From positions 1-59,660 of the forward strand of contig JAILNX010000037.1 of NCBI GenBank assembly GCA_024691085.1: a stretch of 59,660 nt of DNA, in the 5' to 3' direction. The notes under the pieces were generated by a model. The model did not search any database. It worked only from the letters and a program-made list of their open reading frames with translations, and was not told where the DNA came from. Positions 5,248 through 59,660 of the stretch are shown piece by piece. The position numbers and the translations under genes are program-made. Within the stretch, counting starts at the first letter, position 1. The number at the start of each line of letters is the position of its first letter. The stretch comes from Clostridiales bacterium. GTDB taxonomy: Bacteria; Bacillota; Clostridia; Christensenellales; CAG-138.

Positions 5248-5602
5248 TGGTGGAGGCGAAGAGAGTCGAACTCTTGTCCGAAAACCTGTTTGCGTGAACT
5301 TCTACGAGTGTAGTCGGCGGTTTAGATCTTTCGTTGCCGCACGCCCACCGACGGGCTTACGGTTCCGGCAGTCCCTTTATCCCACCCGGGGCGAGGCAGA
5401 CCCGGGCTGGTTCCCCACATTGATGACGCCCGTATCTCACGCCGTGGGAAGCTTGAGGCGGACGGTAGGGCCGTTAGGCCGCTACGGGCATATAGCTGTT
5501 ATTGTCAGTTATATTTAAAAGATTTCCCGTTTTTTACGAAGCACGGGGCTTCGACTCGCTTATCAGGCATCCATGATCCCCGTCGAAACCATTTACGCCC
5601 CC
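5248..5602 (-). ncRNA. ssrA: tmRNA (transfer-messenger RNA)
   Basis: The 5' end GGGGGCG (from 5602) pairs with CGCCTCC before the terminal ACCA (CCA at 5250-5248), forming the alanine-tRNA-like acceptor stem. The T arm carries GTTCGACTC. The internal frame ends in the tag ...DNNSYMPVAA followed by TAA (around 5488-5530), which is the proteolysis tag added to stalled nascent chains. Pseudoknot-rich GC hairpins occupy the remainder. Length is 355 nt, in the normal bacterial range. CCA is encoded. SmpB, its obligate partner, is encoded immediately upstream on the same strand. The exact resume codon is not certain: ACT or GAC both fit. Confidence 0.95.
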
Positions 5603-36303: not shown

Positions 36304-37746
36304 ATGGAACAAAAGAAGAAAACCGGCAAAAAGCTCGGCATAGCTCTTGCCGTGACAATCCCCGTTCTGATCTTAGCGGCCTTTGTCGGAACATATTTCG
36401 TTACGTATTCTTCTGCGGGAAAAGCGCTTGACCGGCGCGATCACGAGGAAGCGAAAAAGCTTCTGTTCCTCAAGGATGCGACAAAACTTCACGATCCGAA
36501 CATAATCAAATACATCGAGGCGCTTGAGACCGAAGCCAATGGAGATCACGAAACGGCGATAGATCTGTTCCGCGCCCTCGGTGATTACAAGGAATCCGAT
36601 ACGATCCAAAAGGAGATCCGATATCGGCTTGCGGAGGAAAAGCGAGGCGCCGGAAGTTATGACGAGGCGTGCGGGATCTTCGCCGCACTTCGCGGCGAGG
36701 GTTACGGCGATTCCGCCGATCAGGTAATACTGACAAAGCTTAAAAAGGCCGAAGCTCTTGTTGAAAGCGGCAGCTTCGAGGAGGCCATCGAGGTGCTTAA
36801 CGAGCTTTCCGATAACGAGGGCCGCGATACCACCGAGGAAATAAACGAGGTCAATTACAAAAAGGCGACAGCTCTCCTTGAGGAAGGCAAGTTCGAGGAC
36901 GCACTGAAGCTCTTTACCGCGCTTTCCGAGCTCGAGTATAAGGATTCCGCCGACATGATCCTCGAAACCAGATATCGCCAGGGTGACAAGGCCGAGGAGG
37001 ACGGCAACCTCAACGCCGCCTTCATAGCATTCCGGAAGCTTTATTTTGAGTCTGATTACAAGGACTCCCACGAGCGCTATCTGAGGGTTCGTTACAAGAC
37101 CGCTCTCGGCGAGGTCGAGGAGGATCCTTTAGGCTCGCTCCGCAAGTTCAGACAGCTTGTGAGGGAGGGCTATGAGGACGCCGAGAAGGGCGTCGTGATC
37201 GCAAAGGAAGCCATAATGCGGCTGACCGAGGAAGGTTCGGACGATTTCTTCTATTTCTGGGAAGAGGAATACAAAAATCACGCCGGCGACTCCGATTACG
37301 ACTACTTCCTGCTCAGCATTCACAACTATGTCGTCAAGGATACGTCCGAATTTGAGATGTGTCCCTTTGCCGAGATGCCCTTCGACAGCAGTATTTCGGG
37401 TTATTTCGAAACCATCGGGGATTTCTATGATGCGCTCAGGCAGTCGGCCTTCGGCGACAGGTGCATGGACGTCTGTTATGACATGGTGAGGCTTGTGGGA
37501 CGCTGGTCCGGCTACTTATTCTATCTCGAGCTTACGTCCGAAGGCCGGCTCTCGTTCAATATCCCCATTCGCAGTTTCCCCTACGGCCAGTATTATTACC
37601 TCCTGTACGACGGAGTCCTGAGCATATATAAATACAAGGACGACTCGTACGCGGGCGATCTGTTCAAGATCAGCTTCATTTCCGAGGACGAGGTCTCGGT
37701 ATACTCCTTCGTTACGCGGGAGTGGTACGTGCTGACAAGAGAATGA
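36304..37746 (+). CDS. Membrane-anchored TPR-like repeat protein
   Basis: 480 residues. A short basic N-terminus and one transmembrane helix (about 11-32) anchor an outside region with at least five degenerate helical repeats (about 40-270), e.g. YDEACGIFAALRGEGYGDSA, FEEAIEVLNELSDN, FEDALKLFTALSELEYKDSA, which follow TPR-like spacing of 35-45 residues and often end in Y-x-D-S. The last 160 residues form a beta-rich domain (GRLSFNIPIRSFP). Start 36304 is favoured by AAGGACGG upstream, over a GTG at 36295. It likely binds partner proteins at the surface; function unknown. A terminator follows. Confidence 0.75.
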   Translation: MEQKKKTGKKLGIALAVTIPVLILAAFVGTYFVTYSSAGKALDRRDHEEAKKLLFLKDATKLHDPNIIKYIEALETEANGDHETAIDLFRALGDYKESDTIQKEIRYRLAEEKRGAGSYDEACGIFAALRGEGYGDSADQVILTKLKKAEALVESGSFEEAIEVLNELSDNEGRDTTEEINEVNYKKATALLEEGKFEDALKLFTALSELEYKDSADMILETRYRQGDKAEEDGNLNAAFIAFRKLYFESDYKDSHERYLRVRYKTALGEVEEDPLGSLRKFRQLVREGYEDAEKGVVIAKEAIMRLTEEGSDDFFYFWEEEYKNHAGDSDYDYFLLSIHNYVVKDTSEFEMCPFAEMPFDSSISGYFETIGDFYDALRQSAFGDRCMDVCYDMVRLVGRWSGYLFYLELTSEGRLSFNIPIRSFPYGQYYYLLYDGVLSIYKYKDDSYAGDLFKISFISEDEVSVYSFVTREWYVLTRE

Positions 37747-53351: not shown

Positions 53352-53423
53352 TTGACATATTCATATGAACGCAGTATCATATGAACAGAGATTCATATGA
53401 AAGGAGATTCATCTATGCCCCAC
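53352..53423 (+). promoter_or_regulatory. Promoter and four-unit operator array of the metal operon
   Basis: TTGACA (53352-53357), 17-base spacer, TATCAT (53375-53380). Overlaying it, TTCATATGAA-type units begin at 53360, 53376, 53392 and, degenerate, at 53408: an exact 16-bp period. The core TTCATATGAA is palindromic, consistent with binding of an ArsR-family dimer, and the units cover the spacer, the -10, the leader and the start codon. Confidence 0.8.
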
Positions 53424-53759
53424 AGGCACGATCATTCAGAGGCGATAAGGACGGTCGCGGAGCTGCTCCCGAAGGACGAGCTTTTATGCGATCTCGGCGA
53501 CCTTTTCAAGCTCTTCGGCGACACGACGAGGATCAAGATACTCTACTCGCTTTTCGAGTCGGAGCTTTGCGTCTGCGCCATCGCGGAGCTTTTGAAAATG
53601 GAGCAGTCGGCGATCTCCCATCAGCTTAAAATACTTAAGGACGCGAAGCTGGTCGGATGCAGGAGGGACGGACGCACGAACGTCTACTTCCTTGCGGACG
53701 ATCACGTAAGGACAATTATCGGACAGGGCTTTGAGCACCTTATGGAGGATGAAAAATGA
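53415..53759 (+). CDS. ArsR/SmtB-family metal-sensing repressor
   Basis: 114 residues. A histidine-rich N-terminus (MPHRHDHSEAIR), a winged helix with FGDTTRIKILYSLFESELCVCAI and QSAISHQLKILKDAKLV, and the ELCVC motif of the alpha-3 helix that ligates metal in CadC-like sensors. Cysteine pair plus His-rich tail suggests Cd/Zn/Pb sensing with the alpha-3N type. Start 53415 has GGAG 9 bases upstream; a longer frame from 53397 is covered by the operator. It would repress itself, the HMA protein and the ATPase until metal binds. ATGA overlap with the next gene. Confidence 0.9.
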   Translation: MPHRHDHSEAIRTVAELLPKDELLCDLGDLFKLFGDTTRIKILYSLFESELCVCAIAELLKMEQSAISHQLKILKDAKLVGCRRDGRTNVYFLADDHVRTIIGQGFEHLMEDEK

Positions 53760-53977
53760 AGAAGACTTTCGCTCTTGAGGATCTCGACTGCGCGAACTGC
53801 GCGGCGAAGATGGAAAACGGAATAAAGAAGCTCGACGGCGTTAAGGACGCCTCGGTTTCGTTCATTACTCAGAAGATGACGGTCGAGGCCGAGGACGGCG
53901 TCGATTTCGACGAGCTCATGAAGAAGATCGTGAAGACCGTCCGGAAGATCGAACCCGACTGCCGCATAATCATGTGA
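53756..53977 (+). CDS. Free heavy-metal-associated (HMA) domain protein
   Basis: 73 residues, one ferredoxin-like HMA domain with the metal site LDCANCAAKM near the N-terminus (CxxC). It corresponds to the N-terminal HMA domain normally fused to a P1B ATPase, here coded as an independent gene whose start overlaps the repressor stop and whose stop is one base before the ATPase start. It could deliver metal to the pump. Alternatives: a small copper-chaperone-like protein. Confidence 0.88.
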   Translation: MKKTFALEDLDCANCAAKMENGIKKLDGVKDASVSFITQKMTVEAEDGVDFDELMKKIVKTVRKIEPDCRIIM

Positions 53978-53978
53978 T

Positions 53979-55853
53979 ATGACGCGCAGACAGAAAAAAA
54001 CGCTTATACGCATCATCATATCCGCCGTACTATTCGCGGCGGCTCTTGCCGTCACGCATATAATAAAGCTTACGTGGTGGGCAGAGCTTATCATATTCCT
54101 CGTCCCCTATCTCGTGATAGGCTATGACGTGATAATGAAGGCCGCGCGCAATATCGTGCACGGGCAGGTGTTCGACGAATGCTTCCTCATGGCGCTCGCG
54201 ACCGTAGGCGCGTTTGCGGTAAAAGAATACCCCGAGGCGGCGGCCGTCATGCTGTTCTACCAGGTCGGCGAGCTGTTTCAGTCCATTGCCGTGGGCAAAA
54301 GCCGAAAGTCGATAGCGGCGCTTATGGACATACGTCCCGACCACGCGAACGTCATTAGGGATGGAGTCGAGGTCACCGTCTCCCCCGAGGAGGTCATGAC
54401 CGGCGAGGAGATCGTCGTAAGGGTCGGCGAGCGCGTACCGCTCGACGGCGTGATAACCGAGGGCGCGACATCCTTGAACACCGCTGCGCTCACGGGCGAA
54501 AGCCTGCCGCGCGACGTGGGAACGGGCGAAAACGTGCTGTCCGGCTCGATCAATTCGGGCTCCGTGTTCCGCATGCGCACGACGGGCACTTATAAGGAGA
54601 GCGCCGTAAGCAAGATAATGGAGCTCGTCGAGCGTTCTGCGGAGCGCAAGGCGAAGTCCGAGAACTTCATCACCAAATTCGCGCGCTACTACACCCCTGC
54701 GGTCGTTCTCGGCGCGCTGCTCCTCGCGCTGATACCTCCCCTCCTCTTTCACGGCGAATGGGCCGAGTGGATACACCGCGCGCTCATATTCCTCGTCGTG
54801 TCCTGCCCCTGCGCGCTCGTGATAAGCGTGCCGCTCTCGTTCTTCTCCGGCATGGGCGGCGCGTCGGCGCGAGGCATACTCGTCAAGGGCGCGAGCTTCA
54901 TTGAGGCGCTTTCGAAGGTCGGCACCGTCGTGTTCGACAAGACCGGCACCCTGACGAAGGGCAGCTTCGGCGTTTCCGCGATACACGCGAACGGCATAAC
55001 CGGGGCGGAGCTTCTCGACATAGCCGCGGTCGCGGAGAGCTTCTCGAATCATCCCATAGCCCAGTCCATCGTCCGCGCTCACGGAAAGCATATCGACTCC
55101 TCCCGCATAGGCTCGCTCTCGGAGCTTTCGGGGCTCGGCATCAAGGCGGTCATCGACGGCCGCGAGGTCTATGCGGGAAACCGCAGGCTCATGGAGAGCA
55201 TCGGCGTCTCTCCCGTCTGCAGCATGGGCTGCTCTCACGATATGCACGAGACCTGCGTGCATATCGCCATAGGCGGCGTTTACGCGGGACATATTCTCAT
55301 CTCAGATGAGGTCAAGGCGACCGCGAAGAGCGCCGTGGGAGCGCTCAAAGGCGCGGGGATACGCACCGTGATGCTGACGGGCGATTCTAATAAGGTCGGC
55401 GAGGAGGTCGGAGCCTTACTCGGACTCGACGAAGTTCACGCGGGGCTTCTTCCCGAGGATAAGGTCTCGATAACCGAGGGCATGCTCGACGGAAAAGGCA
55501 GACGGACGCTCGCGTTCGTGGGCGACGGCATTAACGACGCCCCCGTTCTCACGAGGGCGGACGTGGGTATTGCCATGGGCGCACTCGGCTCCGACGCGGC
55601 GATCGAAGCCGCGGACGTCGTACTGACCGACGACGATCCCATGAAGGTCTCCCTCGCTGTCCGCATCGCCAAAAAGACCATGCGGATAGTCCGCGAGAAC
55701 ATTGCATTTGCTCTTCTTGTAAAGCTCGCCGTGCTGATCCTCGGCGCACTCGGCGTTGCAAATATGTGGATCGCGGTATTTGCCGACGTCGGCGTGGCCG
55801 TGCTTGCGATACTGAACGCCGTACGGGCAATGCGTCCGCCTCGCGCAAGGTGA
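53979..55853 (+). CDS. P1B-type heavy-metal-transporting ATPase (Cd/Zn type)
   Basis: 624 residues. No N-terminal metal-binding domain: membrane helices begin at about residue 12. Transport motif SCPCALVISVPLS (CPC, as in Cd/Zn/Pb pumps), phosphorylation site FDKTGTLTKG, TGES, HP in SNHPIAQ, and GDGINDAPVL. It exports divalent soft metals across the cytoplasmic membrane with ATP hydrolysis. CxxC-like MGCSHDMHETC lies in the nucleotide domain. Operon partner of the ArsR and HMA genes. Confidence 0.93.
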   Translation: MTRRQKKTLIRIIISAVLFAAALAVTHIIKLTWWAELIIFLVPYLVIGYDVIMKAARNIVHGQVFDECFLMALATVGAFAVKEYPEAAAVMLFYQVGELFQSIAVGKSRKSIAALMDIRPDHANVIRDGVEVTVSPEEVMTGEEIVVRVGERVPLDGVITEGATSLNTAALTGESLPRDVGTGENVLSGSINSGSVFRMRTTGTYKESAVSKIMELVERSAERKAKSENFITKFARYYTPAVVLGALLLALIPPLLFHGEWAEWIHRALIFLVVSCPCALVISVPLSFFSGMGGASARGILVKGASFIEALSKVGTVVFDKTGTLTKGSFGVSAIHANGITGAELLDIAAVAESFSNHPIAQSIVRAHGKHIDSSRIGSLSELSGLGIKAVIDGREVYAGNRRLMESIGVSPVCSMGCSHDMHETCVHIAIGGVYAGHILISDEVKATAKSAVGALKGAGIRTVMLTGDSNKVGEEVGALLGLDEVHAGLLPEDKVSITEGMLDGKGRRTLAFVGDGINDAPVLTRADVGIAMGALGSDAAIEAADVVLTDDDPMKVSLAVRIAKKTMRIVRENIAFALLVKLAVLILGALGVANMWIAVFADVGVAVLAILNAVRAMRPPRAR

Positions 55854-59257: not shown

Positions 59258-59286
59258 TTGACTTTTATAAAACCGTTTGGTATTAT
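59258..59286 (+). promoter_or_regulatory. Strong promoter of the tRNA-Arg array
   Basis: TTGACT (59258-59263), 17-base spacer, TATTAT (59281-59286). The predicted start lies about 20 bases before the first tRNA-like copy, as for a normal tRNA gene. No separate promoter is seen before the intact tRNA. Confidence 0.8.
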
Positions 59287-59313
59287 ATTAGACGGTCTAT
59301 GAAAAAGACCTTT

Positions 59314-59384
59314 CTCTCCGTAGCTCAGCAGGATAGAGCGTTCGCCTCCTAAGAACTCCTTCGGTAGTTCGAGAGGAGCGCATA
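59314..59384 (+). pseudogene. tRNA-Arg(CCT) 5'-half copy 1
   Basis: Acceptor-like CTCTCCG, then TAGCTCAGCAGGATAGAGC (D arm complete) and the anticodon-loop segment CGCCTCCTAAG. Beyond it the anticodon stem does not close normally and no canonical T arm or 3' acceptor matches, although AGTTCGAGA occurs. Likely a remnant left by site-specific integration. Confidence 0.75.
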
Positions 59385-59396
59385 AAAACTGCATAT

Positions 59397-59457
59397 GTCT
59401 CCGTACCTCAGTCGGATAGAGGGCCCGCCTCCTAAGGGGAATGTGCACGGCTCAAAT
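59397..59457 (+). pseudogene. tRNA-Arg(CCT) 5'-half copy 2
   Basis: TACCTCAGTCGGATAGAGG and CGCCTCCTAAG. The D stem has changed from GCTC/GAGC to CCTC/GAGG, keeping all four pairs. Only three of five anticodon-stem pairs remain, and no 3' half is recognisable. Confidence 0.72.
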
Positions 59458-59491
59458 AAGGTCAAAGTGCGACCGCATTAGAAAATGAAAT

Positions 59492-59535
59492 GCACTTGTA
59501 GCTCAGCAGGATAGAGCGTCCGCCTCCTAAGGTTA
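59492..59535 (+). pseudogene. tRNA-Arg(CCT) 5'-half copy 3
   Basis: TAGCTCAGCAGGATAGAGC and CGCCTCCTAAG, one base different from copy 1 over 33 positions from the D arm to the anticodon loop. The sequence after it holds a 9-bp inverted pair GGAACAATC/GATTGTTCC, not a tRNA T arm. Confidence 0.72.
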
Positions 59536-59606
59536 TGTTGGAACAATCGCCTTTGGAGGAAAAGCGGGCATTATAGAGTTCGAGATTGTTCCTGAAAAGT
59601 ACACAC

Positions 59607-59660
59607 GCCCACGTAGCTCAGTCGGATAGAGCGGCCGCCTCCTAAGCGGCAGGCCAGAGG
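59607..59660 (+). tRNA. tRNA-Arg(CCT), truncated by the window end
   Basis: Acceptor GCCCACG (59607-59613), D arm GCTC/GAGC, and a perfect anticodon stem GCCGC/GCGGC (59634-59638 with 59646-59650) around the loop CTCCTAA with anticodon CCT at 59641-59643. The variable region and T arm begin (AGGCCAGAGG) and run off the window. This copy has the only intact anticodon stem and is presumed functional. Confidence 0.9.

Follow-up and report, generated by a model that had tools for sequence, protein, structure and literature searches.

The closest described counterpart of the locus reported here is tRNA-dependent lysogeny in actinobacterial phages (Guerrero-Bustamante and Hatfull 2024, PMC10865867). 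In Fionnbharth, the main example in the part of that paper drawn on here, the tRNA of the phage and a protein gene overlap, and a promoter of its own has been demonstrated for this tRNA; in the same part a Lactobacillus prophage is put forward as possibly another case, and how such systems are related in evolution to classic ones is left open. Classic tRNA-targeting islands, phages and integrative conjugative elements (ICEs), as far as covered in the portion of the Islander paper considered (PMC4383910), also place a tyrosine integrase at a tRNA gene, and a displaced fragment marks their far end. A classic element, however, rebuilds its target from a fragment of its own, whereas the elements here leave the host 5' half unused and bring in a whole tRNA. 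In Sinorhizobium meliloti, phage-related sequences substitute for a tRNA, and a host gene is likewise replaced by a foreign gene of the same kind; the section of that report used here mentions no stacked arrays, whereas ours are stacked (PMC11476347). Tandem accretion of ICEs and genomic islands, to the extent of the sources covered, is similar in that several elements accumulate at one attachment site, but in the present case each element's new tRNA renews the target, the elements nest and their order can be read.

We analysed a window of 59,660 nucleotides (positions 1 to 59,660 of contig JAILNX010000037.1, assembly GCA_024691085.1, Clostridiales bacterium), together with relatives of its genome. 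The best explanation of the array at its right end is, with high probability, serial and nested integration of tRNA-replacing integrative elements at tRNA-Arg(CCT). The locus shares with tRNA-dependent lysogeny a short core inside the tRNA, CTCCTAAG, at a junction that here does not rebuild the tRNA. Unlike the actinophage cases in the part of the literature covered, ours are found in Clostridia, on an ICE and on viral contigs, and unlike the tRNA of Fionnbharth, as described in that part, the tRNA here adjoins the crossover, is mostly promoterless and is serially stacked.

Results

Four units in the window, all on the + strand, contain the D arm with the anticodon loop of tRNA-Arg(CCT), at start-to-start distances of 83, 95 and 115 bp. 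Ahead of the first unit lies a sigma-70-like, promoter-like site (TTGACT-17-TATTAT, 59258-59286, + strand, 10 of 12 consensus matches), which we assign to the original host tRNA-Arg(CCT) gene. An earlier note on this DNA, made from the letters alone, had described the four copies, their spacing and the one promoter, as well as an exact 11-base common core after which similarity stops; both descriptions are borne out, as CGCCTCCTAAG is common to all four units and similarity stops directly after it. The crossover core CTCCTAAG is the anticodon loop of tRNA-Arg(CCT). We read the first unit, 5' half A (59314-59353, core 59346-59353), as the 5' half of the original host tRNA. It is followed by spacer Y1 (59354-59396), the left end of element 1, which carries GTTCGA where the tRNA T arm would be, perhaps as the vestige of a decayed 3' half. 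The second unit, 5' half B (59397-59436, core 59429-59436), is read as a replacement tRNA from element 1 that was split later, and spacer Y2 (59437-59491), the left end of an element that we call alpha, contains the arm-site-like motif GACCGCATTAGAA and occurs in nearly identical form in three other genomes (G005, G008 and G470). The third unit, 5' half C (59492-59531, core 59524-59531), is accordingly taken as the replacement tRNA from alpha, again split later, and spacer Y3 (59532-59606) as the left end of element 3, the innermost element. Last comes tRNA-Arg(CCT) D (59607-59660, core 59639-59646, Rfam RF00005), the presumed working copy. The Rfam tRNA model matches this last copy only (59607-59660, 33.8 bits, 3' end cut by the contig end), and the upstream units are thus not full tRNAs by covariance model. 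ARAGORN finds zero tRNAs in the window array, presumably because the last one is cut. A 30-base pattern of the D arm and anticodon, allowing at most two mismatches, matches the window's own genome in these four places only, and its reversed control has 0 matches. The contig stops at position 59660, inside the last tRNA, and therefore the sequence to the right of tRNA D cannot be read on it. Elsewhere in the window lie a tmRNA gene (5248-5602, - strand, tag DNNSYMPVAA) and, named by eye, genes for an ArsR-like regulator and, after it, a P-type heavy-metal ATPase (53397-55853).

The missing 3' halves were sought as CTCCTAAG followed by a T arm in the window's own genome (G000) and in relatives, and were scored by the Watson-Crick pairs that they form with a 5' unit over seven acceptor-stem and five anticodon-stem positions (12 in total). 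Of the 38 displaced 3' halves found, three had no 5' unit on hand for their genome and were left unscored; 24 of the remaining 35 have a same-genome partner at 11/12 pairs or more, against a mean of 2.5 and a maximum of 9 of 35 when 5' sets are taken from other genomes, same-genus genomes included (2000 permutations). The partner is a half in 21 of these good matches and an intact tRNA in three. Fragmented genomes and missed tRNA variants may account for the 11 that lack a good partner, one of which (in G025) is not tRNA-like. In the window's own genome, displaced 3' half A (contig C19, 51321, - strand) pairs with 5' half A, and displaced 3' half C (C19, 51709, - strand) with 5' half C, each at 11/12 stem pairs, whereas a 3' half B gave no match there with the patterns used. 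The suggestion in the earlier note that the upstream units are attL-like half-sites left by repeated integration at an anticodon-loop core thus finds its counterpart in distal cores, both in this genome and in relatives.

The order on C19 is X3, CTCCTAAG and 3' half C, then 388 bp, then Xalpha, CTCCTAAG and 3' half A, which is the nested order. X3, joining 3' half C, is presumably the right end of element 3. Xalpha is named as the right end of alpha because in G005, where the alpha spacer stands directly after half A, the last 12 bases before 3' half A are the same as in the window's genome. By eye, the 388 bp contain a terminator-like hairpin and repeats of GACCGCATTAGAA, which is also present in Y2 and, as a variant, close to alpha's right end; these repeats look like integrase arm sites. 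Alpha is a mini-element of about 0.48 kb (95 + 388 bp). Its right end adjoins 3' half A although unit B stands between A and C in the array, and therefore the body of element 1 (Y1 and tRNA B) seems to be gone, removed either when its tRNA core recombined with its own right core or by later deletion between two right cores. Simple nesting without deletion does not fit this genome, as 3' half B is missing and alpha's right end adjoins 3' half A; a minimum of three insertions and one loss accounts for the window array, with element 3 as the youngest. The body of element 3 was not found in this assembly, nor the continuation of tRNA D in the genome, and of the three PF00589 integrases encoded there (C7, C9 and C22) none was linked to the array locus.

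The reduction of alpha to about 0.48 kb and the apparent loss of the element 1 body in this genome are what might be expected if classic elements, each supplying a 3' or 5' part that restores the tRNA, had integrated repeatedly and then decayed to short half-sites. We consider this reading unlikely, even though classic 3'-half restoration seems to be present at this very tRNA, for example in G013, where an intact tRNA without a preceding 5' half has displaced 3' halves downstream. It is contradicted by arrays that hold an integrase and a distal 3' half on one contig, such as chromosome CP102272 (titled complete), where 75.86 kb marks the 5' half and 107.57 kb the 3' half. Within the arrays, classic restoration is not seen: a spacer, not a complete 3' half, follows the 5' half. 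Serial tRNA replacement also needs no decay for the row of halves, as each element brings a replacement tRNA that is the next target; the later decay proposed in the earlier note applies here in part, to alpha and seemingly to element 1. A single contig of G003 carries 5' half A, complete tRNA B and, 3.4 kb further on, an element end, CTCCTAAG and 3' half A, and in G051, from another family, where the automatic score failed, the same layout is visible by eye, its cores about 10.5 kb apart. G025 (contigs C9, C32, C33, C38 and C42) gave seven matches to displaced 3' halves, of which six are tRNA-like, hinting at many successive insertions.

In eight same-genus stretches, no convincing common neighbour emerged among the proteins encoded downstream of the displaced 3' halves (BLAST of 40 such proteins returned one weak pair, 34% over 98 residues), and therefore G065 relatives were used for an array-free site. 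The array-free reference site, L313, has a single tRNA. Its alignment with array L230 (89.1% over 1527 bp) ends at the last base of CTCCTAAG, and the similarity of L160 and L141 to L313 ends at the same base. On the other side, similarity between L313 and the flank of a displaced 3' half in L301 sets in with the first core base; it amounts to 91.9% over 86 bp and, beyond an interruption of 1.2 kb, to 94.5% over 217 bp. L303 likewise becomes similar to the intact tRNA of L304 at the first core base (94.1% over 101 bp). Five of seven flank comparisons thus break exactly at the core; the exceptions are L247, whose similarity to L313 (95.6% across 1329 bp and then 91.6% across 143 bp) runs five bases past it, and L266, where similarity to L313 starts six bases before it. 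In two arrays (L049 and L052) the 5' half ends in CTCCTAAT, so the exchange probably takes place within CTCCTAA, the seven-base anticodon loop. The genome of L313 has a decayed 3' half 1.9 kb from the array-free site, which may formerly have been occupied.

Two or more units are present in 8 of 13 same-genus genomes (the window's own included; 61 genomes searched), and their counts and spacers differ, in line with the variation in copy number whose absence, according to the earlier note, would have counted against its reading. A near-identical 95 bp unit occurs in G000, G005 and G008 behind differing upstream halves. A scan with one genome per species found arrays at no fewer than 118 loci, a few of which belong to the same genomes as the relatives labelled G; where named, the record titles place them in Clostridia, and the array-bearing isolates include Hungatella, Enterocloster, Coprococcus, Faecalibacterium, Angelakisella, Caproicibacter and Anaerotignum. 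With a strict pattern, arrays are found in 16 of 103 genomes of the family and in 5 of 391 of a class-wide sample (the window's genome included in both), figures that are lower bounds. Among the 118 loci listed, two or more units were parsed in 108 and one unit only in 10. The 138 upstream units of the 108 listed multi-unit loci include 0 complete tRNAs by the main criterion; a looser stem count passes one (L162), which is without a tRNA T-loop and in whose locus ARAGORN finds the last unit only. The anticodon stem has four or five of its five pairs in 65 of the 138 upstream units (all five in 25), so a broken stem is no general mark of halves; this count, too, speaks for repeated classic integration. 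The last unit is complete in 90 of the 118 loci listed, cut by the sequence end in 18 and not complete by pattern in 10. Six of these ten (L137, L153, L187, L211, L212 and L239) visibly precede another complete tRNA-Arg(CCT) variant, three (L174, L181 and L219) end soon after, and L132 falls outside these groups. In all 14 loci chosen for it, ARAGORN reports a single tRNA-Arg(CCT); that the element brings a complete tRNA of its target's isotype is a further likeness to tRNA-dependent lysogeny, with the window's own last tRNA cut. Among ten near-miss loci, eight have one tRNA-Arg(cct) by ARAGORN, L181 (cut) has none and L166 has two, the extra one being 96 bases long and lying ahead of the array. 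L227 combines four halves with an intact tRNA, and L155 and L181 have four units, none of them complete. Stacks in named isolates include those of Oscillospiraceae bacterium MH27-2, with four halves, and Coprococcus catus VPIC661, with two. Parsed units are spaced from 73 bp upward, which corresponds to spacers from 33 bp upward. A long spacer of L196 was seen to hold a further diverged 5' half (with GGACAGAG in its D loop) missed by the patterns, and stack depths are therefore lower bounds.

Spacers proved to be linked to the tRNA that follows them. The following tRNA is the same in 22% of 1202 within-cluster spacer pairs (permuted mean 4%, maximum 8.5%), whereas the preceding half is the same in 4.83% (permuted 2.3%, maximum 4.77%), slightly above all 500 permutations. 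The largest spacer cluster, with 47 members, is loose and mixes several tRNAs; tighter clusters are uniform, with the same tRNA in 10/10 and 7/7 behind varied halves. This linkage indicates that a spacer and the next tRNA travel together as one element end. In many hosts like spacers are followed by like tRNAs, with an integrase downstream, which marks the short spacing as the original end of the element and not as the product of deletion, contrary to what repeated classic integration with decay would imply. The intact tRNA, moreover, often differs from the preceding 5' half though its own two halves match. Spacers as a whole are diverse, with 70 groups below 70% identity among 160 spacers and no common spacer sequence.

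This diversity bears on the other possibility raised in the earlier note, a transcribed array of tRNA-derived RNAs, here taken further as a conserved array of regulatory RNAs whose CCUCCU loop could pair with Shine-Dalgarno sequences. The single promoter ahead of the array, a loop complementary to AGGAGG and hairpins seen by eye after some units would suit such RNAs, but the spacers, judged by sequence, are element-specific and do not form one conserved family, the missing 3' halves are found elsewhere in the genomes and fit the 5' halves (24/35), and copy number differs between genomes. We therefore regard a regulatory array as highly improbable. An anti-Shine-Dalgarno role of the units was rejected in view of the displaced 3' halves.

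The promoter score of first units is 9.0 against 7.6 for shuffled sequence, with 63 of 116 scoring at least 9, and that of spacers, which are shorter than the 80 bp upstream stretch scored for first units, is 7.3 against 7.2. When the first units are trimmed to 54 bp their score is 8.2, and 37 of 116 reach 9 or more (a set scored without a shuffle control). These statistics suggest that the host promoter likely transcribes through the dead halves into the replacement tRNA. A promoter-like site occurs in 13 of 146 spacers, so promoter capture is not universal and a minority of spacers may carry a promoter of their own. Six of the 70 spacer groups have GTTCGA 9-14 bases past CTCCTAA (a complete tRNA 3' half has it at 14); the range tested was 10-20, which takes in five of these six, compared with 0.12 by shuffling and a maximum of 2 (1000 shuffles). 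In six spacer groups GTTCGA lies farther on, a count made without a shuffle control. The positions 9-14 bases past CTCCTAA suggest decayed 3' halves in some spacers, a point that would also suit classic integration followed by decay, and hence descent of the elements from classic tRNA-restoring ones.

Of 70 loci with 900 bp or more of downstream sequence, 51 encode a tyrosine integrase, a feature shared with tRNA-dependent lysogeny; it is convergent to the last tRNA and lies 203-862 bp from the start of the last unit (median 278.5 bp); the recombinase that the earlier note had expected is thus met beside such arrays in relatives. With the single query used, none was found in the other 19 loci, nor was one found near the window locus for its innermost element, element 3. 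Pfam confirmed PF00589 in 10 of 10 chosen from 86 integrase matches. One integrase type is 98.9-100% identical across six loci; the hosts that share it include Coprococcus catus, Cuneatibacter, Faecalibacterium and [Clostridium] asparagiforme. A further explanation would do without mobile elements, by tandem duplication of tRNA genes or recombination between them, or would see in the array an artefact of assembly; it has in its favour that the window's contig ends inside the last tRNA, as is typical of assembly at repeats. Yet the same architecture is seen in isolates and in records titled complete (AP018533 and CP102272), integrases adjoin the array in 51 of the 70 loci and the upstream units are not complete tRNAs by the main criterion, which leaves this explanation with next to no probability. 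The CP102272 element looks like an ICE because it carries a MobA/VirD2 relaxase and conjugation genes (coupling protein, TraG P-loop (VirB4-like) ATPase and TrbL/VirB6). The arrangement with a 5' half is also found on a viral contig of 58.6 kb (L291), and another of 8.0 kb (L274) has the core without a preceding tRNA half, followed by a complete tRNA-Arg(CCT), an attP-like layout.

Discussion

We propose a series of linked steps for the formation of these arrays. A tyrosine integrase would insert the element at CTCCTAAG, in the anticodon loop of tRNA-Arg(CCT), and split the gene. The left junction would keep the host promoter and the 5' half, and the 3' half would be moved to the right, far end of the element. 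The element's complete tRNA-Arg(CCT), some tens of bases inside its left end, would then be read by the host promoter, in a transcript that would pass the dead 5' half and the spacer and from which the replacement tRNA would be excised by normal tRNA processing. The core of the replacement tRNA would itself be the attB for the next element, and repeated insertion would yield a row of 5' halves ending in one intact tRNA, with the element bodies nested downstream. At the level of sequence, the split-gene layout, with the 5' half on the left and the 3' half on the right, and the presence of a replacement tRNA are established, and stacking by way of the renewed target is strongly supported. We infer that the neighbouring integrase performs the insertion, and the promoter statistics suggest that the replacement tRNA is expressed and processed. 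The complete replacement tRNA of each element, and the nesting of element bodies downstream of the last tRNA, had been missed in the earlier reading.

The principle of tRNA-dependent lysogeny was already known from actinophages in 2024; new here are the self-renewing target, the stacks, the mostly promoterless replacement tRNAs and an ICE as carrier. We found no mention of stacked 5' halves or of promoter capture in the part of PMC10865867 considered or in a literature search that most subscription journals lie outside. Serial replacement would mean that tRNA-dependent integration, described in actinobacterial phages, is also found in Clostridia and includes a conjugative element. It would account for puzzling tRNA fragments in these genomes, show one tRNA gene being repeatedly replaced by foreign copies, and provide an ordered record of element arrivals. 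The apparent decayed 3' halves in some spacers bear on the question left open in the 2024 paper, the relation to classic systems.

In tRNA-dependent lysogeny the tRNA of the element is needed for survival after integration; here the AGG codon could also be read by another tRNA through wobble. More broadly, we incline somewhat towards the view that the elements form a widespread class in gut Clostridia, carrying a promoterless tRNA-Arg(CCT) just inside the core that would be activated only behind a host promoter. The locus would then keep renewing itself as a docking site without ever saturating, and the array of 5' halves would be a stratigraphic record of successive phage and ICE invasions; the 3' vestiges in spacers would suggest an origin from classic tRNA-restoring elements.

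Several further records contain the core in other settings. In two human faecal phages (MT836186 and MT836781; L315 and L316) and in Monoglobus (NZ_OY725736; L320), CTCCTAAG and a tRNA-like 3' half lie downstream of an integrase with no 5' half, and these sites may be attR-like or classic attP sites. A record left out of the evidence, OY725843.1 (L322), deposited as a circular plasmid of 75.8 kb from Subdoligranulum variabile, also has a 5' half, a spacer, tRNA-Arg(CCT) and an integrase at about 37297-37480; no further CTCCTAAG was found in it, and it may represent an excised composite element or an assembly matter.
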